A stretch of 64,000 nucleotides of DNA from Aeromicrobium sp. Sec7.5 (GTDB lineage Bacteria; Actinomycetota; Actinomycetes; Propionibacteriales; Nocardioidaceae). Below, piece after piece: positions 23,335 through 43,480 of the stretch. Position 1 is the first letter of the stretch, and every line of letters starts with the position of its first letter. Location: positions 496,001 to 560,000 of the forward strand of contig NZ_JBAJIJ010000002.1 of the NCBI RefSeq assembly GCF_036867135.1, in the 5' to 3' direction. Under the pieces are notes generated by a model. It had not been told where the DNA came from and made no database searches. It was given only the letters and a program-made list of their open reading frames with translations. The translations under genes were made by a program, and so were the position numbers.

Positions 23335-23418
23335 AACCTAGGTGTGCCCCACGTCACGGCGCTACCCCCAAGGAGCGATGTCGTCGATCTGGACGGTTTT
23401 TTGTCACCTGCCTCACAA
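23335..23418 (-). promoter_or_regulatory. mce operon promoter with two operator-like palindromes
   Basis: Distal site TTGTCACCTGCCTCACAA at 23401-23418, 145 bp from the mce start codon. Proximal degenerate site GTGTGCCCCACGTCACG near 23342-23358, directly followed on the minus strand by a -10-like TAGGTT (23335-23340). The AGGAGCGAT word at 23371 between them also occurs at the surface-protein promoter. The rest of 23257-23740 shows no gene I can support. Confidence 0.6.
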
Positions 23419-23740
23419 CTTCTGCCGATAGTTGCCGAGGAGCATCGCCAATGAGACGGATCAGTAGCATGCTGGAGAGGCCGGGACGGGCACCGATTCC
23501 CCGCCCGCTCTCGGCAGCCGTGTCGTCTTGATCGACCACGCGGGGGCGCGGACCGGTGCGAGCCGGTTGCGCCACGCACCCCTGTCGCGGAAGACGACCG
23601 TGGAGGCGCGGCCCCGAGGCGCCGGGGTCGCGCATCCGCTCCCTCGCGAACCTGGTCGTCCACAGGCTCGTCGACGAGATCCGGAGGGCGTCAGAGGGTC
23701 GACCTACGGTCGGTCTCGCCCACCTCTCGGAAAGGTGCCC

Positions 23741-24067
23741 ATGATCGATCCCTCCCGTTCTCGCCCGCCGTGGCAGCACGATCCGTGCCCCGCGTGGTGC
23801 GTCGTCGAGCACGACGAGGCCGACCTGCTTGCCGACCGCGTCCACGACAGTGCGGGCCGTTACACGCCAGCGGTGCTGGGCGGGCCACTCGAGGGCGAGC
23901 AGGCCACCACCGAGCTCCTGATCCTCATGTCGCGCCGGTCCGGCGACGCCGGCGAGTGGGTGTTCGTCGGCCAGCCCGAGCGCGATGGCCACCACCTGTC
24001 GCTGAGCCGTGAGGGTGCCGTCCGCGTGGCCCACGAGATCCTGCGACTCGCGTCCGGCAGCGGTTGA
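23741..24067 (+). CDS. DUF6907-like small protein
   Basis: 108 residues. The N-terminal CPAWCVVEHDEADLLADRVH has the Cys/Cys/His/His pattern seen in actinobacterial DUF6907 proteins, possibly metal binding. The rest has a conserved-looking beta/alpha end (HHLSLSREGAVRVAHEI). Function unknown. ATG at 23741 with AAAGG upstream. Directly followed by the XRE regulator; the pairing is common for this family by my recollection. Confidence 0.7.
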   Translation: MIDPSRSRPPWQHDPCPAWCVVEHDEADLLADRVHDSAGRYTPAVLGGPLEGEQATTELLILMSRRSGDAGEWVFVGQPERDGHHLSLSREGAVRVAHEILRLASGSG

Positions 24068-24075
24068 ACTGCATC

Positions 24076-24113
24076 GATGCTACTGATGAGTCCGTCGACT
24101 TATCCGTAGCATC
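24076..24113 (+). promoter_or_regulatory. XRE gene upstream element with inverted repeat
   Basis: GATGCTAC at 24076-24083 is mirrored by GTAGCATC at 24106-24113. Within it, GACTTATCCGTAG (24097-24109) is the exact reverse complement of CTACGGATAAGTC upstream of the second XRE gene (33191-33203). Candidate autoregulatory operator. Confidence 0.5.
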
Positions 24114-24129
24114 GAGCGAGAGTGCACGA

Positions 24130-24351
24130 GTGGCTCAGCACCCGAGGGAGACCATCGGTCTCAAGATCCGCGAGATCCGTCGGGCGCGCGGTCTGAGTCA
24201 GCAGGCGTTCGCCGATGAGCTCGGCTTCGACCGCACCTACATCGGGTCGCTCGAGCGCGGCGAGCGCAATCTGACGCTCGACACCGTCGTGGCCCTGGCT
24301 GAGCGCCTCGGCGTCGATGTGCTCGAGCTGCTGGTGCCGCCGAGCCGCTGA
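24130..24351 (+). CDS. XRE-family transcriptional regulator
   Basis: 73 residues, almost entirely one helix-turn-helix domain: IGLKIREIRRARGLSQQAFA, then DELGFDRTYIGSLERGERNL and AERLGVDVLELL. GTG at 24130 is preferred over earlier in-frame codons because the domain starts there, as in its paralogue at 33241. The two share FDRTYIGSLERGERNLTL-like recognition helices, so they may bind the same DNA. Confidence 0.85.
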   Translation: MAQHPRETIGLKIREIRRARGLSQQAFADELGFDRTYIGSLERGERNLTLDTVVALAERLGVDVLELLVPPSR

Positions 24352-24373
24352 GCATCGACCTGGCTCCACACGA

Positions 24374-24415
24374 CGACGGTGGGTGGGGAGCCTGTCGGCT
24401 CCCCACCCACCGTCG
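24374..24415. terminator. bidirectional hairpin terminator
   Basis: A perfect 19-bp stem with a TGTC loop: left arm CGACGGTGGGTGGGGAGCC, right arm its exact complement. No long T run follows. It lies between the convergent XRE and surface-protein genes. Confidence 0.85.
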
Positions 24416-24430
24416 TTCAGCCGCTGAGCG

Positions 24431-27400
24431 TCAGCTCAGCTGGTGGCGTCCTCGCGCTCGGTAGGCGAGCAGCCCCAGGCCGGCGAGCAGGAACGTCAGA
24501 CCCAGCGGGATCATCGGTCCCACGTCGCCCGCGCCGGTACCCGGAAGGATCCCGTTGCGGCCGCCGCTGCCATTCGCCCCGTCACCGGCGACAGTGATGT
24601 CCTGCCAGCCGATCAGGGCGCCGGCCTCGTCGTAGATCGCGACACGGTGCACCCCTGCTGCCATGTCTGCCGGGATGGTGACCTTGACGGTCCCGTCCGC
24701 GGCGACGGTGACGAACCCGAGGTCACGCGGCGACGAGAACAGCACGACTCGCACCCGCTGACCCACACGGTCGGCGCCGACCTGGATCGTGACCTGGTCG
24801 CCGGCCTTGACCGGGTTCGGGCTGACCGAGATCAGGTCCTTGAACGCCGGGTCCTCCGGGCGGACCAGCGTCACCGCGAAGTCGTCCCAACCGACCAACG
24901 ACCCACCGGAGTACACCGCGAGGCGGTGCGTGCCGAGCGGGATGTCACCGGGGACCAGGACCTGGATGGTCCCGTCCGCAGCCACCGTGGCCGGGGCGAG
25001 CAGGCGATCCAGGTTCGACAGGTAGACCTGCACCTCCTGGCCGGCGAACGCCGTCCCCACCTGCACCGTGATGGTCGCGCCGGGTGCGGTCGGACCGTCG
25101 AGGTCGATGATGACCTCACCGGTCGGCGGGGTCGTGTCCTTCGGACCCACCGGAGCCGTCGGATCGGACTTCGAGACCACAGCCGCCTCATCGCCACGCG
25201 TGGCGGTCGAGGCGAACGAGATCTCGGCGCCGAGGTGGTCCTCGGTCAGCGCGAGGGACGTGGTCGTCGCTCCCTCGATCGGCTCACCGTCGGCCAGCCA
25301 CTGGTTGACGACCGTAACGCCCTGGGTGTCGTTGAACGTCGCCGGCGTGCCGGTGAGCGTCTGCCCGACCTTGGGGGTGCCGGTGACCGTCGGCTCGGTC
25401 GTGGCCGCGAGGACCACGAGCACCGGTCCGACCGCGGTCGAGACCGACGGGACGGCCTCCTCGCCACGGGTGGCGACGGACTTGAACTGGATGTTCTGGC
25501 CGACGTGATCGGTCGTGAGCACCAGGGTGGTGCCCTCGGCCACGACCTCCTGGCCGCCGATCAACCAGTAGTTGGCGATCGTGACGTCCTCGGTGGTCGA
25601 GAAGGTCGCCGGCGTGCCGGTCAGCGTCTGCCCAACCCGCGGGGTGCCCGTGAGGGTGGCCTCGGTCGTGACGACCAGGTCGACCGGGGCGTCCGTGACG
25701 GCGCCCGTGGGCACCGACTCAGCCGTGTCCGTCGCCTCGTCGATGGCGCGGGTCGCGGTCTGGACGACCTTGACCTGCTGACCGCGCTGCGCCTCGGTGA
25801 GCTCCAGCGTCCCGCCGGTCGCACCCTCGATCGCGGTGAAGGTCTCACCGCTCCCGGCGAACCACTGGAGCGTCGACGTGACGCCCTCGGGGTCCGCCAC
25901 CGGGGTGGCCGTCAGCGTCTGGCCGATGAACGGCTGACCCGTGACGGTCGGCTGACCGACGATCTCCAGCGGCGGCATCTCGATCGGTCCGAGGTTCTCG
26001 GACGCCGAGTTCGCGAACTGCCCCGCGACGTTGCCGGTCGCGAAGAATCGCACCGTCTGTCCGAGGTCCTCGGCGAGCAGGGTGACCTCCGGAACCCCAC
26101 CTGGCGGGATCGCGACGTATCGCGAGCCGATCAGGAACGCGTAGATCACGGACTCCGGCGGGTACGAGAACGTGCCCGGAACGCCGGTGATCGTGCTGCC
26201 CACGAGCAGGTCGCCCGTGATGGTCGCCGGCGTCGCGGCGAACTGGACGATCGGGCCGATGGGTGCCGAGTCCGACGTGACCGTCGCACCCGTCTCGTCG
26301 GTTGCCGTCGTGCGGTACACGAGGAACTTGCCCTCGTTCTCCGCACCCAGCGTCAACGGGTTCGCGTCAGTGACGAGCTCGTAGCTCTCCGCCGGCGCAT
26401 CGGCCGTGTCGGCCCGGTACCAGGCACTCGTCTCGGACTCCGGGGCCCGGTTGAATACCGCCGGGATGCCGATCACGTCCGAGTTCAGCACCGGTACGCC
26501 CTCCACCTGAGGCGCTTCGGAAGCGACCAGAGGCGGGGTGGTGACAGGCCCGACGGCCGGCGCGATCGAGGTCGAGGACTGACCTGCGACATCGCCCCGC
26601 GCGAAGAACTGCACGGTCTGGCCGACATACGCGTCAAGCACCGGCAGGTCCAGGGAACCGCCCGGCGGGACCGGGATGACTCCGCTCGACCCGACGAGCC
26701 AGAAGTACGTCACCGTCTCCGGCGGGTACGAGAAGTCACCTGGGACGCCAGTCAGGGTGCCACCCACCACCGGATCGCCCGTAATGCTCGAGGCCGTCGA
26801 GCTGAACTGCACGACCGGACCGATCGGAGTGGAGTCCGAGGTGAACGTCGCACCTTCCTCGTCGGTCGCCGTCGAGCGGTACACGAGGAACTTGCCCTCG
26901 TTCTCCGCACCCAGCGTCAACGGGTTCGCGTCGCTGACCAGCTCGTAGCTGTCAGCAGGCGCGTCGGCCGTGTCGGCCCGGTACCAGGCGCTCGACTCGG
27001 TCTCGGGCGTGAAGCTGAACTGCGCCGCGATGCCGATGACGTCGGAGTTCAGCACCGGGACGCCTTCGATCTTCGCTGCCTCCACGACACCGGTCGAGCC
27101 GGAGTCGATCGGTCCGACCAGGTTGGAGTCGGCGGTCCACGTGGTGCCTTCGGCGTCCTCCACCGTCGTGCGGTAGGCGACGTACTGACCCTGGAGCTCA
27201 GCAGTCAGCGGCAACGGGTTCGTGTCACCGATCAGCGTCCACTCGGCAGCCGGCGTGTCCGCCGACGGTGCGCGGTACCACGCGCTGGTCTCGGACGTGG
27301 TCTCGAAGTTGAACTCGGCAGCCGTACCCGTCACGGACGTGCCGACGACCGGCAGACCCTCGACCTGCGGCGGGCTCACCACGCCGGGCTCCGGCCCCGC

Positions 27401-28465
27401 ATCCTCCGGACCAAAGATCATCGCCGTGTGGGTGTTCGGCCCCGTCTCCATCGCGACGACCTCATGGCCCTCCAGGTCCACCGGCGGCGGATTCATCAGG
27501 GTGTTAAACGACAGGAAGGAGTAGCCCCAGGTCGCGAACTCACCATTCGCCTTCAAGGCCACCTGCCCCTCGTCGCCGAGACCGTTGCTGGACGACAGGG
27601 CCACCACCCGCTCGGACGCTACGTCCGCAGGGACCTGTTGTCCCTCAGGGATGCCGCGGTCGTCGGCACCAAAGGCAAGCACCTCTCCCTCGTCCGTGAG
27701 CGCGTAGTGGGCGCGCTGCGTCAGCGAAACGTCCACGATCGACGCGTCGCGGACAGCGTCGAAGTTGAACTGGACACGGTTGCTCGAGTTGTCATCCCAG
27801 AAGTGCAGATTCCCGTCAGCGGTGCGAGCCACGGCCATCGCGGCGTTGGCCTCGATCTGCACCACGTCGTCGAGGTCCGGGGTGTTGGCGGCGAACCCGT
27901 CGAGGCCCCAGGACTCAATCGTCCCGTCACTCTTCAGCAGGACACCGAAGGCCGTTGAAGCGTTCCGCCCGCCCAGCTGCACATCGACCACGCCGGTCGC
28001 TACCGCCGGGCTTCGGTACGCAGCGGGGGCCGCCGGCGCATTCGCCCAGGTGACGATCTCACCGAGATCCGTCACAGCGGCCGCCATGCCGCTGTACGTC
28101 TCGACGGCCGCCACACGCTTGGTCTTCAGCGAGGACGGGATCAAGGACACGATGCCGCCGGCGTTGCCCTGCGTCACAAGAGCACCATTCGCGGCCACAC
28201 CCAACGTGGTGTGACCCGTACCCCCGCTCCCCGCAACGGCGACATCCACGAAGGGCGCCTGATCCTGGGGAAAGTTCAAAGTGAACGGCACGATCGGGTC
28301 GTACGTGCCGCTCATACCCCAGCCGTAGATCTGCCCGTCCGTGATGGGTTCCGCAGCGGTGGCGGTGTTGGCCATGGAGATCAGGCCACTGACCAGCACA
28401 CCCGCTACCAGACCGGCGGCGACCCTCCTGCCACGTCGGCGCGGAGAACGGCGGAGATGCTTCAT
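24431..28465 (-). CDS. LPGTG-anchored surface protein with RCC1-like propeller and Ig-like repeats
   Basis: 1344 residues. Signal peptide to about residue 38 (MKHLRRSPRRRGRR then a hydrophobic stretch). Residues 45-355 look like an RCC1-type beta-propeller with repeats such as IYGWGMSG, IESWGLDG and FATWGYS. A long array of Ig-like modules of 90-110 residues follows, each with VTGTPKVGQTLTGTPATF or a variant and usually a central Trp. Two related domains of about 95 residues (VGTAFAGQEVQVYLSNLDR, VGADRVGQRVRVVLFSSPR) precede the sorting signal LPGTG (1307-1311), a membrane helix and a basic tail. Expected to be attached to peptidoglycan by sortase. Start chosen for GAGGAGCC upstream. Its promoter shares operators with the mce operon. 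Confidence 0.85.
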   Translation of the reverse strand: MKHLRRSPRRRGRRVAAGLVAGVLVSGLISMANTATAAEPITDGQIYGWGMSGTYDPIVPFTLNFPQDQAPFVDVAVAGSGGTGHTTLGVAANGALVTQGNAGGIVSLIPSSLKTKRVAAVETYSGMAAAVTDLGEIVTWANAPAAPAAYRSPAVATGVVDVQLGGRNASTAFGVLLKSDGTIESWGLDGFAANTPDLDDVVQIEANAAMAVARTADGNLHFWDDNSSNRVQFNFDAVRDASIVDVSLTQRAHYALTDEGEVLAFGADDRGIPEGQQVPADVASERVVALSSSNGLGDEGQVALKANGEFATWGYSFLSFNTLMNPPPVDLEGHEVVAMETGPNTHTAMIFGPEDAGPEPGVVSPPQVEGLPVVGTSVTGTAAEFNFETTSETSAWYRAPSADTPAAEWTLIGDTNPLPLTAELQGQYVAYRTTVEDAEGTTWTADSNLVGPIDSGSTGVVEAAKIEGVPVLNSDVIGIAAQFSFTPETESSAWYRADTADAPADSYELVSDANPLTLGAENEGKFLVYRSTATDEEGATFTSDSTPIGPVVQFSSTASSITGDPVVGGTLTGVPGDFSYPPETVTYFWLVGSSGVIPVPPGGSLDLPVLDAYVGQTVQFFARGDVAGQSSTSIAPAVGPVTTPPLVASEAPQVEGVPVLNSDVIGIPAVFNRAPESETSAWYRADTADAPAESYELVTDANPLTLGAENEGKFLVYRTTATDETGATVTSDSAPIGPIVQFAATPATITGDLLVGSTITGVPGTFSYPPESVIYAFLIGSRYVAIPPGGVPEVTLLAEDLGQTVRFFATGNVAGQFANSASENLGPIEMPPLEIVGQPTVTGQPFIGQTLTATPVADPEGVTSTLQWFAGSGETFTAIEGATGGTLELTEAQRGQQVKVVQTATRAIDEATDTAESVPTGAVTDAPVDLVVTTEATLTGTPRVGQTLTGTPATFSTTEDVTIANYWLIGGQEVVAEGTTLVLTTDHVGQNIQFKSVATRGEEAVPSVSTAVGPVLVVLAATTEPTVTGTPKVGQTLTGTPATFNDTQGVTVVNQWLADGEPIEGATTTSLALTEDHLGAEISFASTATRGDEAAVVSKSDPTAPVGPKDTTPPTGEVIIDLDGPTAPGATITVQVGTAFAGQEVQVYLSNLDRLLAPATVAADGTIQVLVPGDIPLGTHRLAVYSGGSLVGWDDFAVTLVRPEDPAFKDLISVSPNPVKAGDQVTIQVGADRVGQRVRVVLFSSPRDLGFVTVAADGTVKVTIPADMAAGVHRVAIYDEAGALIGWQDITVAGDGANGSGGRNGILPGTGAGDVGPMIPLGLTFLLAGLGLLAYRARGRHQLS

Positions 28466-28534
28466 GAATGGCTCCTCGAGAATCGGGGGGTTCTGCACCG
28501 GACGGGCGACAGCCCAGATCCCGGCGATGCGGCG

Positions 28535-28629
28535 ACGCTAGGTGTAACCCACGTCACCCCGCCAGCAACATGGCGGAAACAGGAGCGATTTCGACGACTT
28601 GGGGTGATTTCTTGTCACCCACCTGACAA
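28535..28629 (-). promoter_or_regulatory. surface-protein promoter with two operator-like palindromes
   Basis: Distal site TTGTCACCCACCTGACAA at 28612-28629, 147 bp from the start codon. Proximal site TGTAACCCACGTCACC at 28543-28558, directly followed on the minus strand by TAGCGT (28535-28540). AGGAGCGAT at 28581 matches the mce promoter. No gene is seen in 28466-28766. Confidence 0.6.
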
Positions 28630-28766
28630 CTTTTCTCCGAGGTCCCATCCCGCGCGACGTCGTGCAACATCGAAGGTGCGCAGAGGACACGGCGCCCGCT
28701 TCGCTTGCGCCAGGCCGACAACGTCAGGTGGCACCCGCCGAGTCAGCGCTCGATCGGGTGGCGAAT

Positions 28767-29378
28767 TCAGGGGCTGGTGAAGGTGAGAGGGTCACTGCCC
28801 GCCGGTGGAACGTTGGTCCACGAACCGCTCACCCTGAACGTCTGGTCCTTCGCGAGTCCGGGGATCGGGCACAAGTAGCCCACTGGATCGCCGATGATCT
28901 TCAGGCTGTTCGCCGTCGGAGTGACTGTCTGGGTGGCGGTGTCGAAGACACCGGTGACGTCACCCTCCACCGTGAATGAACAGCCCGCGACCGTGATCTG
29001 GGCGGAGACGTCCGCCAGCTCCGCCGGCCACCGCGTGCCAGCGGGTTGCCCGGTGATCGAGACCTTGGGAGTGCCCAGCAGCGTGACGTTCGTCAGGCCG
29101 CCAAGGGGGTTGGTGCAGTTGCTGGTGCTCAGGTTGTCCAGGGTTCCCGCGTTCTCGCCCAGAGCTCGGCTCGACGCGGGATCGATGACCGTGCCGGCGA
29201 AGTTCACCTGCGCACAGGTCAACGTCTGGTTCGCCTGAACGTCCGTGAAGCTGATGTCGCTCCCGACGAAGTTCACTGCCGGGCCACCGCCCGGGGTGAA
29301 GGTACCGGAAGCCGCAGTCGTTGTGCCCAGGCCACCCGCGGTGAGCAGAGCAGCCAGGACGATTTGCAGAAGTCCCAT
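28767..29378 (-). CDS. secreted PraB-like protein (paralogue 1)
   Basis: 203 residues. Short signal peptide ending near TAASG, then a mature beta-rich domain with FTPGGGPAVNFVGS, QTLTC (Cys55), SNCTNPLGG (Cys88), AGCSF (Cys133) and GYLCPI (Cys170), allowing two disulfides. The layout resembles actinobacterial proteins that databases label alkane oxidation protein activator PraB; this is from memory and is not evidence for that function. AAAGG precedes the ATG. Two paralogues follow at 30659 and 31483. Confidence 0.7.
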   Translation of the reverse strand: MGLLQIVLAALLTAGGLGTTTAASGTFTPGGGPAVNFVGSDISFTDVQANQTLTCAQVNFAGTVIDPASSRALGENAGTLDNLSTSNCTNPLGGLTNVTLLGTPKVSITGQPAGTRWPAELADVSAQITVAGCSFTVEGDVTGVFDTATQTVTPTANSLKIIGDPVGYLCPIPGLAKDQTFRVSGSWTNVPPAGSDPLTFTSP

Positions 29379-29459: not shown

Positions 29460-30566
29460 TCAGGGCGCCTCACCCTCCGGCAGCGGCGGCATGGGCGGCG
29501 CGGACGTCGGCGGAGCCGGGCAGAAACCGGGAGCGTCGCACTTGAAGATGTCGTCCGGGTCAACCCCGCTGTACATCGGCTGCGCCTGGCTGACGCGCAC
29601 GGGATTGTTCGGGCCCGAGGCCATCGCCGTGACGATGGAACTCAGGTCGTCGCCCTCGGACGCACAGCCAACGAAGGGTGGGATGTCCACGCCCGTCGAG
29701 TCGGGGATCAGTCCGCGGCCGTTGTGCTCGAAGTAGTAGGGCGAGTCGAGCGGGATTCGGGTGCCGGTCGCCAGGCCGTCGAACTGAGCAAGATTGCCCG
29801 TGCGCAGGGCCTGGTAACCCTCCTCGCCCCAGAGCCGAAGATCGACAGGGCGTTCCGTCTGACAACTCGGTCCGAGGTCGACCGGCACCCCGTCGATCTC
29901 GAGGTCGTGGATTCGAACGTCCGCCTGACCCTCGACCATCGCACGGTAGAATTCCGTCCCGTTCGCGCAGCCTGGGATGTCCGACGATCCCGGAGCCCAC
30001 ACGTGGACCGCCCAGGGAGTCACCTCGCCGCCAGACCGCGTCATCGCCAGACTGATCGTCGCGGTCGCCGGCAGGCTACCGAAGGCCAGCAGGTTAACGC
30101 GCACGCTTGGCAGCACGCCGACCTCGTCGAGCTTGCCATCTGGCGTGATCGACAAGGCTGTGAAGTCCGAGAGCACGTACTGCACGAGACCGAATTCGTC
30201 TGGAGGCACCGTGGCGCACGCAGGCGCGTCGAACGGCCACGCCACGCGGTTCGCCGCGGAGTACCCGGTGGGGTTCTCGATCGGTTCGTTAGCCCGCCCG
30301 TACCGGAGTGCGGCGATGATGGGATTGTCGGGCCCGATCGTGATGTACATCTTCGATGATCGCGCAACAAGCCCCTGGGTCGCCATGACCACACCGGAGG
30401 TCTCGTACCCCGATCCACTCGGCAACTCTTCCGCACCCTGAGCGACACCTCTCGCCCCAGGATCAGCGCTCGCAGGCATCACGACTGCGGTGCCGACGAG
30501 CACGGCAAGTACAGCCGCTACCCGTCTGGCGTCTGCAGCGAATCGACTGAACGGACTGGGCACCAC
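29460..30566 (-). CDS. secreted protein of unknown function
   Basis: 368 residues. Signal peptide (RRVAAVLAVLVGTAVVMPASA) and a mature domain with several Cys (ACATVPP, IPGCANG, PSCQTERP, VGCASEG, FKCDAPGFC). The C-terminal tail is Pro-rich. GTG start at 30566 chosen for GAGAGGA upstream; 30563 is also possible. Lies between PraB-like paralogues and is probably part of the same cell-surface set. I do not recognise the family. Confidence 0.7.
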   Translation of the reverse strand: MVPSPFSRFAADARRVAAVLAVLVGTAVVMPASADPGARGVAQGAEELPSGSGYETSGVVMATQGLVARSSKMYITIGPDNPIIAALRYGRANEPIENPTGYSAANRVAWPFDAPACATVPPDEFGLVQYVLSDFTALSITPDGKLDEVGVLPSVRVNLLAFGSLPATATISLAMTRSGGEVTPWAVHVWAPGSSDIPGCANGTEFYRAMVEGQADVRIHDLEIDGVPVDLGPSCQTERPVDLRLWGEEGYQALRTGNLAQFDGLATGTRIPLDSPYYFEHNGRGLIPDSTGVDIPPFVGCASEGDDLSSIVTAMASGPNNPVRVSQAQPMYSGVDPDDIFKCDAPGFCPAPPTSAPPMPPLPEGEAP

Positions 30567-30601
30567 GGTGGTTCCTCTCACATGCGCTGATCTTGACACG
30601 G

Positions 30602-30658: not shown

Positions 30659-31300
30659 TCACGCAGTTGCGATGAGGAGGTTCGTGCTGCCCGCGGGCGG
30701 GGTGTTGGTCCACGAACCGCCGACCTCGATGTCCTGGCCGTTGGCCAGACCCAGGATCCCGCAGAGGAAACCGGAGGGAACACCGGTGATCTTCAGGCCC
30801 GAGGCGCCGGTGGCCGGGGTGAACTTCTGGGTCGAGTCGTTGAAGGTACCGGCAACCGTGCCGCCCACCGGGAACGTGCAGCCGGCGGCCGTCACCGTCG
30901 CCGCAACGCTGGTGAGACGCGCGGGCGACACCGAGCTGACCTCGTCGCCCGTGATCGTGACACCCCACGTGCCGGTCGGGGTGACCGTGGTGGCACCGGC
31001 GATCGGGTTGGTGCAACCGCTGGACGTCAGCGAGCCCAGGTTGCCTGCGTTGGCGCCGATGGCGCGGCTGGTGCCCGGGTTCACGACAGAACCGGCGAGG
31101 TTGAACGTCGAACACGTGAGCGTCTGGTTGGCCTGGATGGCCTTGAAGCTGACGCTGCTGCCGACGAAGTTGACGTTCGGTCCACCGCTCGGCGTGAAGG
31201 TCGTGGCGGCGTGAGCCGGCGAGCCCATGGCCAGGGTGGTGAGGACGAGTGCCGCAGCGGCGACCAGGCCGGACGTCTTGCGCTTGTTGAACAACTTCAT
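30659..31300 (-). CDS. secreted PraB-like protein (paralogue 2)
   Basis: 213 residues. Signal peptide cleaved near AHAAT. The mature part shares FTPSGGPNVNFVGS and four Cys (63, 96, 141, 180) with the other two paralogues; SGCTNPI and AAGCTFPV are the most conserved blocks. AAGGGGG lies upstream of the ATG. Own hairpin terminators on both sides suggest separate transcription. Confidence 0.72.
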   Translation of the reverse strand: MKLFNKRKTSGLVAAAALVLTTLAMGSPAHAATTFTPSGGPNVNFVGSSVSFKAIQANQTLTCSTFNLAGSVVNPGTSRAIGANAGNLGSLTSSGCTNPIAGATTVTPTGTWGVTITGDEVSSVSPARLTSVAATVTAAGCTFPVGGTVAGTFNDSTQKFTPATGASGLKITGVPSGFLCGILGLANGQDIEVGGSWTNTPPAGSTNLLIATA

Positions 31301-31367
31301 GATTCCCCCTTCAGGGATGTCAATGGCGGCGAGAGCCACCGGGTGGGATACTGCTTCCTCTGGTCGC

Positions 31368-31482: not shown

Positions 31483-32124
31483 TCACGGGACCGCAATCGT
31501 GAGCGGGCCGCTGCCGGCCGGAGGCGTGTTGGTCCACGTGCCCCCGATCTTGATGTCCTGATCCTTGGCCACGCCGATAATCGGGCAGATGAAGCCCGCC
31601 GGAGTGCTCACGATCTTGAGTCCCGAGGCAGGCCCAACTGGGGTGAACCGCTGGGTCGCGACGTCGAAGGTGCCATTGGCGACGCCCCCGATCTGGAAGG
31701 AGCATCCATTCATCGAGAAGGTCGCATTCACGTTCGTGATCCGCACGGGCCACGTCGACCCCAGGGCGTCACCCGTGACCGTCATGCCCCAAGTGCCAGT
31801 TGGCGTGATCGTGGTTGGGCCCATGATGACGTTCGAACAGCCAGCAGAGGTCAGAGTTCCGACGTTCGCCGCGTTCCAGCCAATCGCTCGACTCAATCCA
31901 GGACTCGCGATACTTCCCGCCAGATTGAACGTCTGGCACGTCCACGTCTGATTCGCCTGGATGAACGTGAAACTGACGTTCGAGCCGACGAAGTTGACGT
32001 TCGGACCACCGCCGGGCGTGTAGGTCGTGGCCGCGGAGGCCGGGGAGGACATGGCCACTGCCAGGGCGAGGGTCGCGGTGAAGGCGATCATGGAGCTGGC
32101 GAGTCGCTTGGCGAGAGTCTTCAC
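31483..32124 (-). CDS. secreted PraB-like protein (paralogue 3)
   Basis: 213 residues from the GTG at 32124, chosen for GAAAGGACG upstream. Signal peptide ending near SPASAA. Same four-Cys plan as its neighbours: QTWTC, AGCSNVI, NGCSF, GFICPI. It has more aromatic residues (TWTCQTFNL, STWPVR), so it is the most diverged copy. Confidence 0.72.
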   Translation of the reverse strand: MKTLAKRLASSMIAFTATLALAVAMSSPASAATTYTPGGGPNVNFVGSNVSFTFIQANQTWTCQTFNLAGSIASPGLSRAIGWNAANVGTLTSAGCSNVIMGPTTITPTGTWGMTVTGDALGSTWPVRITNVNATFSMNGCSFQIGGVANGTFDVATQRFTPVGPASGLKIVSTPAGFICPIIGVAKDQDIKIGGTWTNTPPAGSGPLTIAVP

Positions 32125-32234: not shown

Positions 32235-32244
32235 GGCGTCGAGC

Positions 32245-32955
32245 TCAGCCGCCGTAGCGCGGGTTGGAGATCGTCAGGTCGAGCGTGTTGTTGCTGCCGG
32301 GCACCAGGGCGTTGATCGGCACCGAGCCGAACCACGGGAAGAAGCCCGGGATGTTGAAGAAGTTCAGCGGCGTGCAGCCCGTGAACTTGCCGATCGTGTA
32401 GGTCGACGTGACGCGGCCACCCTCGTTGACGGTGAAGAACTCACCCTCGGGCGTGCTGGCGGTGATGTTCGCCGGGCTGATCGTGTGGCAGTTGTTGCCG
32501 ACCGCCAGCGGGAACCAGACGCCGAAGACCTTGGCCTCGACGCTGCTGATCTTGATGTCGTAGGCGACGTTCGAGACAAGGCGGGCCTTGCCGAGCTCCT
32601 CGGTCTGCTGCAGCGCACCGGTGAGCTGGCCGACCTGCGTCAGCGTGACGTTGGCGCGAGCGGGAATCCCGAACACGTCGAACTGCAACTGCTGGGTCGG
32701 GATCGGCAGCGTGCCGCCGACGATGTCACCCGTGACGAGGTCAAGGGTCGTCGTGAGCTCGGACGGACCGAGCGGCAGCGTGGAGTCGACCTGCGAGCCG
32801 ATGTAGCTGGAGCCCACCGCGTCGTACTTGACGGTCAGCGTGGGGTTCGGCTCCTGGGCCTGCACCGCGGGGGCCGCGGTGAGGGCCAACAGGGACAGGG
32901 CGGCGGCGCCCAGGAACATGCGGCTCCGGCGGCCGGTCGACGAGAGTGTTTTCAC
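32245..32955 (-). CDS. secreted beta-rich protein of unknown function
   Basis: 236 residues. Signal peptide (MFLGAAALSLLALTAAPAVQA) and a mature part dominated by short beta strands, with one Cys pair (NNCHTISP, FTGCTPLN). GTG start with AGGGGA upstream. The operator at 33101-33118 stands 146 bp from the start, matching the geometry of the mce and surface-protein promoters. Family not recognised. Confidence 0.72.
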   Translation of the reverse strand: MKTLSSTGRRSRMFLGAAALSLLALTAAPAVQAQEPNPTLTVKYDAVGSSYIGSQVDSTLPLGPSELTTTLDLVTGDIVGGTLPIPTQQLQFDVFGIPARANVTLTQVGQLTGALQQTEELGKARLVSNVAYDIKISSVEAKVFGVWFPLAVGNNCHTISPANITASTPEGEFFTVNEGGRVTSTYTIGKFTGCTPLNFFNIPGFFPWFGSVPINALVPGSNNTLDLTISNPRYGG

Positions 32956-33100
32956 GAGATTCCCCTAAGCGATGACGAATGTGGATGCGATCCGAGCCGG
33001 TGTGACCCGGAACACGATCGCGGCGATGTGGTCATTACGGGCTAGTTCCCTGGTGCGCCGCAAGGGGTCGATGGCGAATTGGGCGAAACGAGACCGAAAC

Positions 33101-33118
33101 CTGTCACCCACGTGACAA
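33101..33118. promoter_or_regulatory. operator palindrome, near-perfect copy
   Basis: CTGTCACCCACGTGACAA: arms TGTCAC / GTGACA around CCAC. It lies between a secreted-protein gene (146 bp to its start, minus strand) and an XRE gene (plus strand, start 33241). The rest of 32956-33240 shows no gene. Confidence 0.65.
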
Positions 33119-33240: not shown

Positions 33241-33453
33241 GTGCCCTCCCACCTCCAGGTCGTCGTCGGACGCAAGCTCCGCGAGCACCGCACCCGTCTC
33301 GGACTCAGTCAGGAACGCCTCGCCGACGACCTCGGATTCCATCGCACCTACCTGGGATCGGTGGAGCGCGGCGAGCGCAACCTGACGCTCGCGTCGGTCG
33401 AGCAGCTCGCGGCACGCCTTGGCGTCGACCCGCTCGACCTCCTGCACGACTGA
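33241..33453 (+). CDS. XRE-family transcriptional regulator, paralogue of the gene at 24130
   Basis: 70 residues, a single helix-turn-helix domain: VVVGRKLREHRTRLGLSQER, then DDLGFHRTYLGSVERGERNL and AARLGVDPLDLL. GTG at 33241 has AAGGTGCGG upstream. The recognition region is nearly identical to that of the first XRE protein. Confidence 0.85.
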   Translation: MPSHLQVVVGRKLREHRTRLGLSQERLADDLGFHRTYLGSVERGERNLTLASVEQLAARLGVDPLDLLHD

Positions 33454-33483: not shown

Positions 33484-33501
33484 TTGTCACGCGGATCACA
33501 A
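33484..33501 (+). promoter_or_regulatory. operator palindrome upstream of first PucR-type gene
   Basis: TTGTCACGCGGATCACAA, one mismatch between the arms, 127 bp before the ATG at 33629. Confidence 0.6.
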
Positions 33502-33628: not shown

Positions 33629-34888
33629 ATGCCAACAGCGATCGGCGACATCGAACGAGCACGAGCGGCCAGACCCGCAGGCTCCTCCGAGACGGCCGGC
33701 CCTTCCTCGCCGCCCCTGCTCGACGCACTTCCGCCACTCGACGACGACGTCATCGCCGCCTGTCGCCAACGCGCCGACCGTCTGAGCGCCCGGATCTCGG
33801 GCCGCATCCACGCAGAGGTCGCTGCGTTCGCCGACCCGTCGATGCACGCCGTCATCACCGAGGCGATCGAGATGTCCGTGGGCTTCTTCATCGACGCCCT
33901 CGCCGGGGCACCCACCCGCGGCCGTGCCGTGGGCGACTTCTTCCGCTGGCTCGGACGCGTGGAGGCGGCCGCCGGTCACGACCTCGACGCCATGCGCGCC
34001 GCCCACCAGATCGCGACGCAGGAGACCTGGAGCGAGCTCCGCGAGGCCTCGCACGAGCTCGAGCTGCCCGCCACGGCGGTCGGCCAGCTCGCCAACGCCT
34101 TGCTCAACTTCCAGAACCAGCTGCTCCAGCACGCGACGCAGGGGTTCACCCTGGTTCGCGCACGTCGGGGCGGCGCACGGAACAGCCCCCGGTCGCTGCT
34201 GATCGAGGCGCTGCTCCGCGGCGAGTGTCCCGACCGCATCGAGGAGCTCGCCAGCACCGTCAGCTGGCCCGTGCCGGAATCGGTCTCCGTCATGACGACC
34301 ACGATGAGCGCGCAGGCCCGCGCCGTCGTGGGGGCCACCACCGGGGCACTCGCGGGCTCGAACGGCAAGCGTCTGGTCGTCATCGTCGACACCGGAGCCG
34401 CACCGCGGCTCGCCGAGCACCTCGCACGGCAGGTCAGCGACCCCGTCACCCTCAGCTGGGGTGTCACCCCCGACGAGGTGCACCATGCCGCACGCTGGTC
34501 GGCCCGTCTGTTCCGTCTCGCCGCCAGCGGGCAGGTGGCCCCACCCGCCGACGGCGTTCTCCGGTGCGGCGATCACCGCGCCAAGCTGTGCCTGCACGCC
34601 GACCCCATCCTGCGCCGCTGCACCGACCGGGAGGTCCTGGCGCCCCTGCTCACCGAGACCCCCAAGCGTCGCTCAGCCCTGGCCGACACCATGCTCATGT
34701 GGCTCCAGACCCGTGAGAGCGTGCCCGCCATCGCCGACCGCCTGGGCGTCCACCAGCAGACCGTGCGCCACCGCCTGCGGCGGATCAAGGAGCTGTTCGG
34801 CGACCGCCTCTCGGACCCGTCGGAGACAGTGGCCCTGCTCACGGCCCTCGAGTCGGTCACGCCAGGCTGGCGCTCTGACGCCGCCTGA
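33629..34888 (+). CDS. PucR/CdaR-type transcriptional regulator (1 of 3)
   Basis: 419 residues from the ATG with GGGGAGG upstream. N-terminal helical region (about 40-170), a middle region of weak GGDEF-like character, and a C-terminal PucR-type helix-turn-helix SVPAIADRLGVHQQTVRHRL followed by RRIKELFGDRL. The same C-terminus occurs in the two other regulators of this window. No ligand domain can be named. Preceded by one of the six operators, so autoregulation is likely. Confidence 0.85.
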   Translation: MPTAIGDIERARAARPAGSSETAGPSSPPLLDALPPLDDDVIAACRQRADRLSARISGRIHAEVAAFADPSMHAVITEAIEMSVGFFIDALAGAPTRGRAVGDFFRWLGRVEAAAGHDLDAMRAAHQIATQETWSELREASHELELPATAVGQLANALLNFQNQLLQHATQGFTLVRARRGGARNSPRSLLIEALLRGECPDRIEELASTVSWPVPESVSVMTTTMSAQARAVVGATTGALAGSNGKRLVVIVDTGAAPRLAEHLARQVSDPVTLSWGVTPDEVHHAARWSARLFRLAASGQVAPPADGVLRCGDHRAKLCLHADPILRRCTDREVLAPLLTETPKRRSALADTMLMWLQTRESVPAIADRLGVHQQTVRHRLRRIKELFGDRLSDPSETVALLTALESVTPGWRSDAA

Positions 34889-34948: not shown

Positions 34949-34966
34949 TTGTCATGCGGGTGACAA
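34949..34966 (+). promoter_or_regulatory. operator palindrome upstream of second PucR-type gene
   Basis: TTGTCATGCGGGTGACAA, one mismatch between the arms. A weaker copy, TGTGACCCACGACACG, lies at 35122-35137. The rest of 34889-35191 shows no gene. Confidence 0.6.
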
Positions 34967-35191: not shown

Positions 35192-36400
35192 ATGACCGTG
35201 ACGCCCACCCCACGCACGACGCCCGAGCTCGTGGCCGAACGAGCCCGTGCCGTCCGACGCGACGTCCCGAAGGTCGCCAGCGAGATCGCGCTCGCCGTGC
35301 GCACCCGCATCCCCAGGTACGACGCGCCCGCCGTGCGGAGCGTCATCGACGAGGCCGTGTCCACGGCGATCCACCGGTTCCTGGACGCCGTGGACGGCGC
35401 GCCCCACCGCGACCGCGGGGTCGAGGAGCTCTTCCGCTCCCTCGGCCGCACGGAGGCCCGATCGGGCCACTCGCCGTCGGACCTGCGGGCCGCCGTCCAC
35501 ATCGCCATCTCGGCCTCGTGGCAGTTCCTGCGGCACTCCGACACCTCGGCCACCTCCGACGGCCCGGTGCGCAGCGGGCTGGCCGACGCGGTGTTCGCCT
35601 TCGCCGACCACCTCATCGCCGAGGCCGACGCCGGCCACGCCGAGGGCCTCCAGCGACGTGCTGACGACCCGATGCGTGCTCGCGCCCGCCTCGCCGAGAG
35701 TCTCCTCGGCGGGCCCCCCCTCTCCGACCTCGACACGGCGGGGTGGACCGTCCCGGAGGTCGTGCTCGTCCTGGTCGTCGAGCTGCCCGGCGACGAGCGC
35801 CCGGATCTCTCGGCCGTGGCCCGCACCAGCCTCATCGTGCGCCACGGGCAGCGACTGGTGATCCTCACCGATGCCGCCCGACGCGACGAGGTGCTCGAGG
35901 CCGTGCTGGAAGCCGGCACCGGGCGGGTCGGACTCGCCACGGCCAGTGCGTCGGCAACGATTCCTGCGGCGTTCCGCTGGAGCGGACGCGTGCTGACCCT
36001 CGTGCAGCGCGGGGTGATCCCCGATCAACGGGTCGTCGATGCGTCCGGCCACCTGACCCAGATCTGGTTGCACGCCGAGCCCGCCCTGCGCCAGTCCCTG
36101 GTGCAGTCGCTGCTCGCACCGCTGCTGGCTGAGTCGCCGAACTCGCGCGAGATCCTCTCCGAGACGCTCCTCGTCTGGCTCGAGACCCGCGACAGCGCAC
36201 CGGCCATCGCGGCGCAGCTCGGCATCCACCCGCAGACGGTGCGCTACCGCTGGAAGCGGATCAACGAGCTGTTCGGCGACGCGCTGCGCGAACCGGAGTT
36301 CATCGTGCAGATCACGATGGTCCTCAAGGCCAGCGTGCCGCTGTGGAAGGCCGGCGACCAGTCCGACTTCGAACGCTTCCAGACGGCGGCCGGCGCATGA
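35192..36400 (+). CDS. PucR/CdaR-type transcriptional regulator (2 of 3)
   Basis: 402 residues from the ATG at 35192; an in-frame GTG at 35114 would add 26 poorly conserved residues. N-terminal helical domain like that of the first regulator (IHRFLDAVDGAPHRDRGVEE against FFIDALAGAPTRGRAVGD). C-terminal helix-turn-helix SAPAIAAQLGIHPQTVRYRW then KRINELFGDAL. Its stop overlaps the start of the pseudo-P-type ATPase gene (ATGA), so the two are co-translated. Confidence 0.85.
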   Translation: MTVTPTPRTTPELVAERARAVRRDVPKVASEIALAVRTRIPRYDAPAVRSVIDEAVSTAIHRFLDAVDGAPHRDRGVEELFRSLGRTEARSGHSPSDLRAAVHIAISASWQFLRHSDTSATSDGPVRSGLADAVFAFADHLIAEADAGHAEGLQRRADDPMRARARLAESLLGGPPLSDLDTAGWTVPEVVLVLVVELPGDERPDLSAVARTSLIVRHGQRLVILTDAARRDEVLEAVLEAGTGRVGLATASASATIPAAFRWSGRVLTLVQRGVIPDQRVVDASGHLTQIWLHAEPALRQSLVQSLLAPLLAESPNSREILSETLLVWLETRDSAPAIAAQLGIHPQTVRYRWKRINELFGDALREPEFIVQITMVLKASVPLWKAGDQSDFERFQTAAGA

Positions 36401-37431
36401 ACGACGTCGTCAGCCTGACCGGGAGCCTCGGCGCCGCCGTCATCGTGCTCGCCGCCGCGGCCGCGTGGTGGTCGGCGCGGCCCCTGGTGGTCGGCTCGGC
36501 CCTTCGGCGGTCGGGTGAGAACCAGGCCCGAGTGCGCGGCCGGGGCGCTCTTGAAGCGTTCGAGCGGCTCGACACGCTCGTGATCGACCCGATCGGATCG
36601 ATCACCGACGGTGAGCCGCGCGTCGTGGGGGTCGAGCCAATCGACCCCGAGCACGACCGCAGCCTGCGCTGGTTCGCCGGAGCACTCCAGCACGGCGAGG
36701 ACGATCCTGTGGCCAAGGCCGTCTCCCGGCTCGCCGCGCGCGGCGGTGCGACGAACGTGCAACGCCTGCCCGGGATGGGCGTGCTGGGCACGGTCGACCG
36801 GCACCCGGTGCGCGTCGGTTCGCCGGAGTGGATCGGCGTCGAGGCCGAGGACGACGGCTGGGGCAAGATCCTCGCCGTCGAGGTCGACGGGCGCGCGATG
36901 GGGCGGATCACCGTCGCCGACGCGGTGCGCGAGCAGGCACCCACCACTGTCACGGCGCTCGTCGGCGACGGCTACCAGATTGTCCTGACCGCTCCGGGCG
37001 AGGCCGCGGCGCGCCACCTCGCCGGCGCGGTCCCCGACGCCACCGTCGTGTCGACCACCGAGAGGTCCACCGCCGAGGTCGTGGAGGAACTGCTCGGCGA
37101 CGGCCGCCACATCGGTGCGGTCGGCCGCGGACGCGCCGCCGTGTTCACCTCGGCCGCCGCCACCCCGATGGTCAGCGACGAGCTGGCGAGCGACGCCGCC
37201 GGCGTCGAGATGTCCGACGTCGCGATCCACCACGTCGCCGCGGTGCTGCGCCTGCTGCGCGGGGCCCATGGCCGCCTCCGAGCGATGCGTCGCGCCATCG
37301 TGCTCGTGGCAGCGGTCGGGTTCATCGCGCTGATCGTCACGCCGACCGGCCCGCCTGACATCGCCGCCACGACCATCACCGTGCTCGCGCTGCCCATCGC
37401 CCTCACGGCACCCCTCGCGCGCTGGGGGTGA
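36397..37431 (+). CDS. degenerate P1B-type ATPase-like membrane protein
   Basis: 344 residues matching only the C-terminal half of heavy-metal P-type ATPases. One membrane segment (about 10-34) leads into GALEAFERLDTLVIDPIGSI. Here the phosphorylation motif DKTGTLT has become DPIGSIT (64-70), with Asp64 kept and Lys/Thr lost. RHPVRVGSPEWIG matches the nucleotide-domain HP/G region, and the GDGxND hinge motif is missing. Two membrane helices end the protein. Catalysis is improbable; a sensory or scaffold role coupled to the PucR-type regulator is an inference. Confidence 0.75.
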   Translation: MNDVVSLTGSLGAAVIVLAAAAAWWSARPLVVGSALRRSGENQARVRGRGALEAFERLDTLVIDPIGSITDGEPRVVGVEPIDPEHDRSLRWFAGALQHGEDDPVAKAVSRLAARGGATNVQRLPGMGVLGTVDRHPVRVGSPEWIGVEAEDDGWGKILAVEVDGRAMGRITVADAVREQAPTTVTALVGDGYQIVLTAPGEAAARHLAGAVPDATVVSTTERSTAEVVEELLGDGRHIGAVGRGRAAVFTSAAATPMVSDELASDAAGVEMSDVAIHHVAAVLRLLRGAHGRLRAMRRAIVLVAAVGFIALIVTPTGPPDIAATTITVLALPIALTAPLARWG

Positions 37432-38030: not shown

Positions 38031-38255
38031 GTGATCACCGTGCCGCTGGAGACGTGGGTGTCGATCGGGGCCCTGATCGGTGTCAGCCTGTCGCTCGCCG
38101 GCCTGATCCTCGCAGCGATCCGCAGCCTGCGCACCGAGATCAAAAGTGACATCGCCCAGATGCGAACCGTGGTCGACCGGCTCGACGATCGCGTCTACAC
38201 GCTGGCCACCCGACAGTCGACCGGCCCACTCATCGTTCCCCGGTCCCGCGATTGA
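38031..38255 (+). CDS. small single-pass membrane protein with coiled coil
   Basis: 74 residues. Membrane helix at 9-31 (WVSIGALIGVSLSLAGLIL), then a charged coiled coil (IKSDIAQMRTVVDRLDDRVY). Layout resembles small phage-holin-like or divisome accessory proteins, but no family can be assigned. Confidence 0.5.
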   Translation: MITVPLETWVSIGALIGVSLSLAGLILAAIRSLRTEIKSDIAQMRTVVDRLDDRVYTLATRQSTGPLIVPRSRD

Positions 38256-38282
38256 CCGTCAGGTCATCGCACGACGCCAGTC

Positions 38283-38741
38283 ATGACCAACACCTACGCG
38301 GACTTCCTGCGGGGCAGGCGTTCGATCTTGAGCCTGTCGCAAGGGGCACTCGCTGACCTCGCCGGGGTCAAGCAACCCACGATCGCTGCCATCGAGTCCG
38401 GGAAGCGGACGCCCTCGGCCTCGGCCCGGGCAGCGCTCGACCAGGCGCTGACGACGCAGCCATCGACGGCGTTGGCGGCTCGGCGTCACGAAGTGCGTGA
38501 CCTGTTCGATCGTGCCGGCCTGCCCGAGCCGCGGGTGTTCGGCTCTGTCGCACGAGGGACCGACCGACCCGACTCCGACATCGATCTCCTGGTCGAGTTC
38601 TCCGACCATCACGACATCGTCGATCTGCTGACCCTGCAGCAAGAGCTCGAGACGCTCCTGACCTTCCCCGTGGACCTGGCCGACTCCCGCGCTCGAGGAC
38701 CGGTCACCACACACGGGCTCACCGAGATCGTGGGTCTGTGA
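38283..38741 (+). CDS. XRE helix-turn-helix fused to MNT nucleotidyltransferase
   Basis: 152 residues. Residues 7-55 are an XRE domain (LSQGALADLAGVKQPTIAAI). The second half is a minimal nucleotidyltransferase with GSVARGTDRPDSDIDLLV (87-104); the metal-binding Asp are D99, D101 and D131. MNT proteins are antitoxins that neutralise HEPN toxins by adding nucleotides. The HEPN partner directly downstream is reduced to a remnant, so this is an orphan. Confidence 0.82.
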   Translation: MTNTYADFLRGRRSILSLSQGALADLAGVKQPTIAAIESGKRTPSASARAALDQALTTQPSTALAARRHEVRDLFDRAGLPEPRVFGSVARGTDRPDSDIDLLVEFSDHHDIVDLLTLQQELETLLTFPVDLADSRARGPVTTHGLTEIVGL

Positions 38742-38842
38742 CCAACGCCAGCGACTAGGACAAGGTTGACGACCGCTTGGTCTTTGCCGCGCTCGAACGC
38801 CGCATCCCCCACCTGCTCGACGCGGTGGACATGGAGGTCTGA
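38738..38842 (+). pseudogene. remnant of a HEPN toxin gene
   Basis: A GTG overlapping the MNT stop (GTGA) opens a frame of six codons ending in TAG. About 23 bases further, LVFAALERRIPHLLDAVDM-like codons run to a TGA at 38840-38842, resembling the C-terminal helix of HEPN/DUF86 proteins. The middle, with the RNase motif RxxxxH, is absent. Best read as an internal deletion of the toxin gene. Confidence 0.5.
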
Positions 38843-38867
38843 CCCCGAGGGCGTTGTCACGGGACAA

Positions 38868-38945
38868 GAGGCTTCGAGGCTCGCTCGTTCCTCGCTCGCA
38901 CTGGGGGCACCTCCCACGACGAAGTCGTAGGGGGACAGCCAACGG
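38868..38945. repeat. degenerate family A remnant
   Basis: TTCGAGGCTCGCTCGTTCC matches the family A inner arm. It is followed by a small hairpin (CCCACGACGAAGTCGTAGGG). It lies between the toxin remnant and the helicase gene. Confidence 0.5.
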
Positions 38946-38950
38946 ATAGG

Positions 38951-41320: not shown

Positions 41321-41404
41321 CCCGGCAACCTACCCACCACGGCGCCCACTCCGGGCACCTGAGCCGACCGAGGTTTCGAGCAGCCCACGGGGGTGCAGAC
41401 TCCC

Positions 41405-41801
41405 CGGTGGTTGAGGTGTGAGTGCCGCCTGCGGCGCGAGCCTCGAAACCCTGGTCAGCCGACGGGCTGGGGTACCCCTTTCGAGGCTCGTTCCTCGCAC
41501 CTCAAGGGGCGGAAAGCCCCGGTGGTTGAGGTGCGAGTGCCGCCTGCGGCGCGAGCCTCGAAACCCTGGTCAGGCGACGGGCTGGGGTACCCTTTCGAGG
41601 CTCGTTCCTCGCACCTCAAGGGGCGGAAAGCTCCGGTGGTTGAGGTGCGAGTGCCGCCTGCGGCGCGAGCCTCGAAACCCTGGTCAGGCGACGGGCTGGG
41701 GTACCCCTTTCGAGGCTCGTTCCTCGCACCTCAAGGGGCGGAAAGCTCCGGTGGTTGAGGTGCGAGTGCCGCCTGCGGCGCGAGCCTCGAAACCCTGGTC
41801 A
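41405..41801. repeat. family A repeats, 3.5 tandem units, inverted orientation
   Basis: Units start at 41411, 41526, 41640 and 41755, 114-115 bp apart, in the opposite orientation to the block at 3451. The last half unit ends in CTGGTCA, which contains the complement of the TGA stop codon of the GIY-YIG gene. Confidence 0.92.
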
Positions 41802-42098
41802 GGTGTCCTCCCTCGGACGGCCGGCACGCCTGCTCGACAGCTCCGGCAGCAGCTCGAAGTCACCACGCATCAACGCCTCACGCTTGGCCCGTGACCAGCC
41901 GTGGATCCTGCGCTCCCAGCCATACGCCTCGCGCACGCTTCCGGTCTCCTGAGCCCAGGCGAGCTCGACCGGCAGCCGCATCCGGGTGTACTCGGCTCCG
42001 CGTCCGGCAGCGTGTTGGTCGAGCCGATGCTGCAGGTTGCGGGTGCTGCCGACGTAGTAGGTCCCGTCGGAGCAGCGGAGGATGTAGACGGCAGGCAT
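41799..42098 (-). CDS. GIY-YIG endonuclease domain protein (UPF0213-like)
   Basis: 99 residues. The motif pair is YIL (5-7) and YVG (15-17) in VYILRCSDGTYYVGSTRNL, with Arg25 and Glu62 (GWERRIHGWSRAKREAL) as the other expected catalytic residues. The domain is complete. ATG at 42098; longer in-frame starts extend into repeat. Its stop codon lies in a family A array, and another family A half unit lies 50 bp upstream. Proteins of this small type have been described as single-strand DNA nucleases linked to genomic repeats, as I recall; that is not proven here. Confidence 0.87.
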   Translation of the reverse strand: MPAVYILRCSDGTYYVGSTRNLQHRLDQHAAGRGAEYTRMRLPVELAWAQETGSVREAYGWERRIHGWSRAKREALMRGDFELLPELSSRRAGRPREDT

Positions 42099-42146
42099 GG
42101 CTGCATGACACCGCAGATCGGCACCGGGTGGTGAGTCGTGTCCACA

Positions 42147-42206
42147 GGTGGCCAAGGTTTCGAGGCTCGCGCGCCAGAGCGCACTCACACCTCAACCACC
42201 GGGGGT
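42147..42206. repeat. family A right-half unit
   Basis: CAAGGTTTCGAGGCTCGCGC followed by the hairpin GCGCCAGAGCGC and CACACCTCAACCACCGG. It sits between the GIY-YIG gene and the 3' end of the third PucR-type gene. Confidence 0.85.
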
Positions 42207-42210
42207 GGGG

Positions 42211-43310
42211 TCAGGCCTGGGGACGACCGGCCCACTCGGGCTGGGAGGCGCGCAGGGCGACGATGAGCTCGAGCCGCTGGGTGGGCTCGTCGAGCACCGT
42301 GCCGAAGATGTCGCGGCACTGCTTGAGGCGGTGGTGCACCGTCTGCGGCGGCGCACCCCGATCTCGCGCGCGAGCACGTTGCCGGCCACCCCCCGCTCGA
42401 GCCAGGCCAGCAGGGTCGAGGCGAGCTCGCGGCGACGGTGCGGCGTGAGGCGGGCGAGCGGGGCCAGGTGCTTGTCGGCCAGCAGCCGTGCCATGACCGG
42501 GTTGCCGCAGATCAGCAGCACACCCAGCAGGTCGGAGAACGGGACGAGTCGGCGCTGGTCGGCCGCGCGACCCTCCCGCAGGAGCGCCGCGGCCCGCCAC
42601 ACCATGGCCGAGGAGTCCTCGAGCTCCGCGCCACTCACGAGCGGACCGACCACGACCTGACCACCGACGACGCGCTCCAGCTCGGCGGGGTCGACCCCCT
42701 CCGGCACCAGCACCTCGAAGCAGGAGCGTCCCGGCAGGAGGCGAGCGTCTCCGAGCAGCTCGTGCGGCAGCTCGTCGACGACCGCGACGATCATCCGGAC
42801 CCGGCCGTCGGCCACGGGAGCGGTGACACCGCCCTGCAGCGCGGCACGCTCGGCCTGATCGCGGTCCTGGCGCACCTCCTCGCGGGCGACCGCCGCGAGG
42901 AGCTGGCGGTGCAGGCCGCCGAGGTAGTGCTTGACGTCGCGGCGCAGGCGCAGCATCGGCTCACCGACGACCTGCCCGCGGGTGAACTGGGTCAGCGACC
43001 CCATGACGATGTCGTGCACCTGCACGAAGGTGGCGTCGATGTCGCGGCGCGAGACGCCCACCTGGGCGCGAGCGGCGCCGAGCTCGTCCATCAGCTGGGC
43101 GGTGGCGCGCAGGGCGATGCGCGGGCGGCACTCGGCGCGCAGGAACTCGTCGAAGCACGCGGCCACGAGGCTGCGGGTGCGCAGGTCGATCGGGGCGTCG
43201 GTGACGCGGGAGATGGCGCGGACGATGCGTCCGTGCGCCATGGTGCCCGAGTGGCCGAACGCGGCCGAGACTCCCGTGTGGTCCGGCCGCAACAGCTGGT
43301 CTGCCGTCAT
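42211..43310 (-). pseudogene. PucR/CdaR-type regulator (3 of 3), frameshifted in the DNA-binding helix
   Basis: The frame from the ATG at 43310 encodes a regulator like the two at 33629 and 35192 for about 320 residues, up to NVLAREIGV. It then turns into an Arg/Ser-rich sequence. The expected continuation, PPQTVHHRLKQCRDIFG through the natural stop at 42211, is in another frame, so one base is missing (or two are extra) near 42350 in a GCGGCGGCG-rich stretch. The first frame runs on to 42192. It may be a true mutation or a sequencing error. An operator lies 153 bp upstream. Confidence 0.8.
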
Positions 43311-43462
43311 GGGTCCCCTCCGTCCACGACCTCAAGGGCCGTCAGGTCGACCCGGCCGAGACCGGGTCTGCGTGCGTCGTGGGGGCGACATGGTGATTCA
43401 GCCACGAGCACCGAGCCGGGGACAAGCGAATCGGGTGGCCCAGGTGGTGCCAGAAGGATTTC

Positions 43463-43480
43463 TTGTGACGTGGGTGACAA
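43463..43480 (-). promoter_or_regulatory. operator palindrome upstream of third PucR-type gene
   Basis: TTGTGACGTGGGTGACAA; on the minus strand TTGTCACCCACGTCACAA. One mismatch between the arms. No gene is seen in 43311-43670 apart from this site and the leaderless promoter near 43660. Confidence 0.62.

Follow-up and report, generated by a model that had tools for sequence, protein, structure and literature searches.

A shared palindrome before an mce operon, surface-protein genes and PucR-type regulator genes of Aeromicrobium sp. Sec7.5 as the probable operator of MabR-like activators

The control of mce transporters, and the set of proteins that work with them, are to our knowledge poorly known outside mycobacteria. 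A stretch of 64,000 nucleotides from Aeromicrobium sp. Sec7.5 (contig NZ_JBAJIJ010000002.1, C2:496001-560000 of the genome; called the window below and numbered from its first letter) carries an mce operon, genes for secreted and wall-anchored proteins and three related regulator genes of the PucR type. This raises the question of whether these genes are controlled together through a palindrome, TTGTCAC-N4-GTGACAA, that an original prediction made from the letters of the DNA had placed at six positions among them. The analysis described here indicates that the six sites are probably one operator, close to TTGTCAYGCGCRTGACAA, which would be read by the adjacent MabR-like PucR-type regulators, and that these regulators would jointly activate the mce operon, the surface proteins and their own genes.

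When the window was scanned for the palindrome with up to three mismatches, exactly six places were found, as predicted, and none of them was a perfect copy. They lie before the mce operon (23401..23418, minus strand; TTGTGAGGCAGGTGACAA read toward the operon), before the gene of an LPGTG-anchored surface protein (28612..28629, minus), between a secreted-protein gene and an XRE gene (33101..33118, minus), and before regulator 1 (33484..33501, plus), regulator 2 (34949..34966, plus) and regulator 3 (43463..43480, minus), with 2, 1, 1, 2, 1 and 1 mismatches, respectively. Dinucleotide shuffles of the window averaged 1.13 matches and never exceeded 4, six being reached in 0 of 100 shuffles. The form TTGTSA-N6-TSACAA occurred exactly at five places in the genome (3,417,358 bases), all five being window sites within 20 kb; with one mismatch allowed there were 11 places, the six window sites and five elsewhere, and a reversed control pattern gave one match. 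Since the exact matches are confined to the window and one-mismatch places elsewhere are few, the sites form a locus-specific cluster.

All six sites are outside called genes. The original prediction had also put most of them 125-155 bp from a start codon, and this holds for five: the distance is 144 bp for the mce operon, 143 bp for the LPGTG gene (212 bp with the start of our home-made gene caller), 145 bp for the secreted-protein gene (181 bp with the caller's start), 152 bp for regulator 3 and 127 bp for regulator 1 (start at 33629). The exception is regulator 2, at 225 bp. The caller set some starts too far in, such as 33842 for regulator 1. The palindrome and its spacing stand as proposed, but the interior is not a free N4: among the 120 exact sites of the window and of the related loci introduced below, both strands counted, the six central bases prefer YGCGCR, and the ideal site is therefore close to the sequence given above.

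For comparison, 77 stretches were fetched (L049-L125; 1.45 Mb including the window); they were picked around sites, regulators or mce genes, and site counts in them are not those of a random sample. Sites with at most one mismatch were intergenic in 154 of 155 cases, in DNA of which 87.6% is called coding; the sole coding site, in G132, is Crp-like, and the reversed pattern gave no site in the window and these loci. A motif as frequent inside genes or elsewhere, which would have spoken against the prediction, was not what we found: in the genome the site is almost confined to the locus, and in the fetched loci to intergenic DNA. Its placement before the mce operon, surface genes and regulators recurs in relatives, a site being present in the upstream 400 bp of 27 of 31 genes for the fused ATPase-MlaE protein, 35 of 62 genes of the regulator 1/2 type and all 13 of the regulator 3 type. 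The corresponding counts were 15/27 for LPXTG-type genes, 15/30 for the family sec29, 14/41 for sec28/30/31, 4/27 for sec32, 0/36 for p36 and 60/1018 for other genes. These counts exclude short mce pieces and any gene for which the upstream sequence was shorter than 300 bp; operon-internal genes depress them, and divergent neighbours inflate the number for other genes. The fused mce genes without a site are those of G089 (a second copy), G099, G176 and G186.

We then consider how the site is distributed. The first family scan covered 197 genomes, our own and 196 others, 48 of which share the window's genus. Regulator 2 as query matched 38 of the 197 with E values of at most 1.1e-57, and the genome after these was at 1.3e-36. 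The exact form TTGTCA-N6-TGACAA was present in 31 genomes, namely 28 of the 38 regulator genomes vs 3 of the 159 others (G023, G039 and G148; Fisher p 2e-22), and for 56 of the 75 matches listed a regulator is no more than 20 kb away on that contig. TTGTSAC-N4-GTSACAA was found in 27 genomes, 24 of the 38 and three of the 159 (G132, G153 and G170, each Crp-like). In a second scan, an exact site was seen in 16 of 21 Nocardioidaceae loci, several of them from genomes already in the first scan, vs 1 of 57 loci outside the family. With one mismatch allowed, 3 of these 57 outside loci had a site, no more than with the reversed control (3/57). The lone exact site outside the family (L165, Streptomyces) was discounted; it lies inside a long perfect hairpin that by eye is terminator-like.

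The upstream regions of the mce operons in many relatives have a further pattern in common, GTGAC-N4-G-N-S-ACACCTA-NNN-T, downstream of the palindrome. This second, weaker element near the -10 box, which the original prediction had left out, was present in 23 of the 31 fused-mce genes examined. With up to two mismatches the pattern was found in 32 of 205 site-gene pairs vs 0.25 expected from shuffles, a count that is partly circular because mce promoters of this same set had served to define the pattern; the circularity is smaller for the LPXTG and secreted-gene promoters. In the window, with coordinates derived from the spacing, the element of the mce promoter lies at 23335..23357 (minus), at a distance of 43 bp from the distal site; it has the form GTGAC-N4-G-N-S-ACAC, and the -10-like TAGGTT comes after it. 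Before the LPGTG gene the element is found with a -10-like box at 28535..28557 (minus), at a distance of 54 bp, and before the secreted barrel gene weakly, with two mismatches, at 32993..33015 (minus), at 85 bp.

In the 23 mce promoters where the element is clear, the palindrome-to-GTGAC distance was 53-54 in 16, 43-44 in six and 80 in one. On a tree of 25 MlaE proteins (to which G138, with a weak element at 43, and G158, at 80, were added, and from which G014, at 55, was omitted), at least five switches between the short and the long class fall on well-supported branches, values of 45-52 are absent, and the sister pair G000/G149 differs by exactly one short/long step. When the first base of the -10 box was set to -12, the centre of the distal site fell at -92.5 or -91.5 in 16 and at -81.5 or -82.5 in four of the 20 pattern-fitting mce promoters, i.e. 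at positions one helical turn apart. The inferred -35 hexamers agreed with TTGACA at 2, 3 and 4 of 6 bases in 7, 12 and 1 of the 20 promoters, little above the 50%, 32% and 7% of random sequence. A one-turn difference between two spacings that have interchanged at least five times suggests activation from one face of the DNA, and the layout of the mce promoter fits an activator of this kind. The sites, their confinement to the locus, their conservation, their linkage to the regulators and the stepwise spacing can all be read from the DNA itself.

Which protein would bind there? Regulator 1 (33629..34888, plus) and regulator 2 (35192..36400, plus) have HTH_30 at the C-terminus (Pfam E 2.4e-16 and 1.3e-15), as expected of PucR-type proteins. 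The third predicted regulator (42192..43310, minus) is a related PucR-type gene with its frame broken inside the HTH, and it gave zero Pfam matches. Its homologues in relatives keep a PucR-like HTH in frame at their end (by eye), among them that of L071 with 91% identity, and the break is either a pseudogene mutation or an assembly error. The N-terminal non-haem globin-like domain and the GGDEF-like domain joined to the HTH, both features of the MabR-like class, are present, and the structure prediction gives regulator 1 a fold like that of MabR.

MabR (Rv2242) and its Streptomyces orthologue FasR are PucR-type regulators of fatty-acid synthase II, and they share with the system here the predicted globin-like, GGDEF-like and HTH architecture, a palindrome ending in TTGT/ACAA, an operator at a comparable distance upstream of the promoter, and a lipid theme. 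MabR binds TTTTGT-N9-ACAAAA, whereas our sites read TTGT-N10-ACAA with an inner constraint (CA/TG, YGCGCR); the N9 spacing and the TTTTGT/ACAAAA halves were not found, and the palindrome is a related one but a different operator. The regulators also do not adjoin a fasII operon, as orthologues would, but mce and surface genes. MabR acts on lipid synthesis; in our case, one predicted operator over an import and surface gene cluster would be shared by two or three regulators. The proposal that the regulators coordinate these genes through the site is supported in part, in that the site tracks PucR-type regulators across the family and MabR, with the same predicted architecture, binds a similar palindrome. 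The PucR-type activator GabR of Corynebacterium glutamicum resembles our paired elements in having two inverted repeats before one promoter, both relevant for strong binding; the repeats of GabR are of 21 bp and lie within -87 to -23, a GGDEF-like domain is absent, and the protein is a local regulator of GABA genes. The known regulators of mce operons, Mce1R, KstR and Mce3R, are of the GntR and TetR types and not PucR-type. In the literature searched, which lacked most subscription papers, we found no description of a PucR-type regulator tied to mce or of such an operator. A further PucR-type regulator of this genome, at L088 9753-10922, adjoins a ferredoxin-reductase-like and a desaturase-like gene (named by eye), again a lipid context.

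The binding protein, the direction of control and the ligand are matters on which we infer the following. At the mce promoters, a regulator dimer would occupy the palindrome, which lies near -82 or -92 relative to the start; these promoters have poor -35 regions, and most, like the LPGTG gene promoter here, bear the weaker second element beside the -10 box. The regulators would switch on, as a unit, their own genes together with the lipid-import (mce) operon and the secreted and wall-anchored proteins. The globin-like domain would probably sense a lipid, e.g. a long acyl chain, and the regulon would consequently answer to lipid supply.

The same regulators could instead repress through the same operator, with dimers on the distal palindrome and the proximal element shutting the promoter until a lipid ligand releases them. 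The proximal element fills the spacer between -35 and -10, and helically phased paired sites serve repression loops as well; on the other hand, the -35 hexamers are barely better than random, and the distal site sits where class I activators bind. The PucR-type regulators that PMC7652997 names are activators, and Bacillus subtilis PucR both activates and represses. We regard repression as rather improbable, though as the most serious competitor of activation.

Several observations weigh against activation by the PucR-type regulators as proposed. The position of the element between -35 and -10 could itself mark repression. The spacing is 80 in G076 and G158; a site without a clear proximal element is seen in G043, G072 and G089, and most regulator promoters lack the element as well; and the helical periodicity of 10.5 bp over all gene families is weak (R 0.46, 12 distinct family-spacing values) and was not used as proof. 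The exact C-type site is missing in 10 of the 38 regulator genomes (G014, G072, G074, G076, G083, G089, G094, G097, G103 and G108); eight of these were fetched, all but G074 and G103, and a relaxed site precedes an mce gene in 8/8. In G178 the fetched regulator locus is without a site, and in G162 the exact site is on a different contig from a partial regulator match. At E below 1e-250, the fused mce gene was found in 36 of the 197 genomes, every one of them a regulator genome, G162 and G178 being the exceptions that have the regulator without it; since it is limited to regulator genomes (36/36), phyletic profiles hardly separate mce from regulator.

A Crp/GlxR-type protein, for which the site would be a variant of TGTGA-N6-TCACA, is a very improbable binder. 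The spacing is the same and some sites have TTGTGA/TCACAA halves, but position 5 of the half-site is C in 80%. Crp HTH genes are present in 61/61 family genomes, whereas TTGTSAC-N4-GTSACAA is found in just 8/61, including G014 with a Crp-like copy, and none of the seven exact Crp-type palindromes of the genome lies in the window; on this distribution the candidate was rejected. Equally hard to credit is the small XRE/Cro-type protein (33241..33453, plus; 70 aa), whose gene is adjacent and has homologues in the fetched loci of 10 genomes, our own included, but none at E 1e-4 in those of G044, G021, G049, G064, G070, G100 and G138, all site-bearing, fetched loci alone being covered. A second small XRE gene is located at 24130-24351 (plus), with 60% identity to the one at 33241.

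The genes that the PucR-type activators would control begin with an ABC ATPase fused to an MlaE permease (21490..23256, minus), followed by a second MlaE (20509-21408) and Mce/MlaD-type genes; by eye the operon extends to about 12-13 kb. The surface protein (24431..28468, minus) gave weak RCC1-like matches, and an LPGTG sorting signal was seen in it by eye. With the exception of this RCC1-like match, neither the secreted proteins scanned nor the product of the gene directly 3' of regulator 2 (36397..37431, plus) had a Pfam match at 0.001 or better. A PDB profile search identified the latter as soluble domains of a P1B-type ATPase, with a C-terminal hydrophobic stretch by eye; in this stand-alone protein the phosphorylation motif is not conserved, and its homologues adjoin regulator 2 in many fetched relatives. 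The AlphaFold model of the secreted protein of 32245..32955 (minus) is an up-and-down barrel nearest OmpW/OmpA, and an OmpW/OmpA-like barrel is thus the predicted product; the PDB profile search gave nothing at E 1 and Foldseek alone no match under E 0.1, and we know of no outer membrane in the actinobacterial lineage of the host. Four more secreted proteins are encoded at 28767-29378, 29460-30569, 30659-31339 and 31483-32124, all on the minus strand, and some of their homologues in relatives have the operator upstream.

An elaborate version, which we put forward as speculative and doubtful, would have two or three paralogous lipid-sensing MabR-like regulators share one operator and, possibly as mixed oligomers, bridge the phased sites while the degenerate P-type ATPase is a co-sensor; together they would build, when needed, a lipid conduit from the fused mce transporter and the OmpW-like barrel in a bacterium for which no outer membrane is known. 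Apart from this, the conserved operator provides a testable parts list for the Nocardioidaceae mce system (fused transporter, secreted barrel, sorted surface proteins and degenerate P-type ATPase), and MabR-like control, known for lipid synthesis, would extend to lipid import. The site also offers a ready DNA target with which the ligand of the globin-domain regulators could be sought. Elsewhere in the window, a translated stretch recurs by eye in some open reading frames at about 3.9-5.4, 17-18 and 47-48 kb, as an interspersed repeat.
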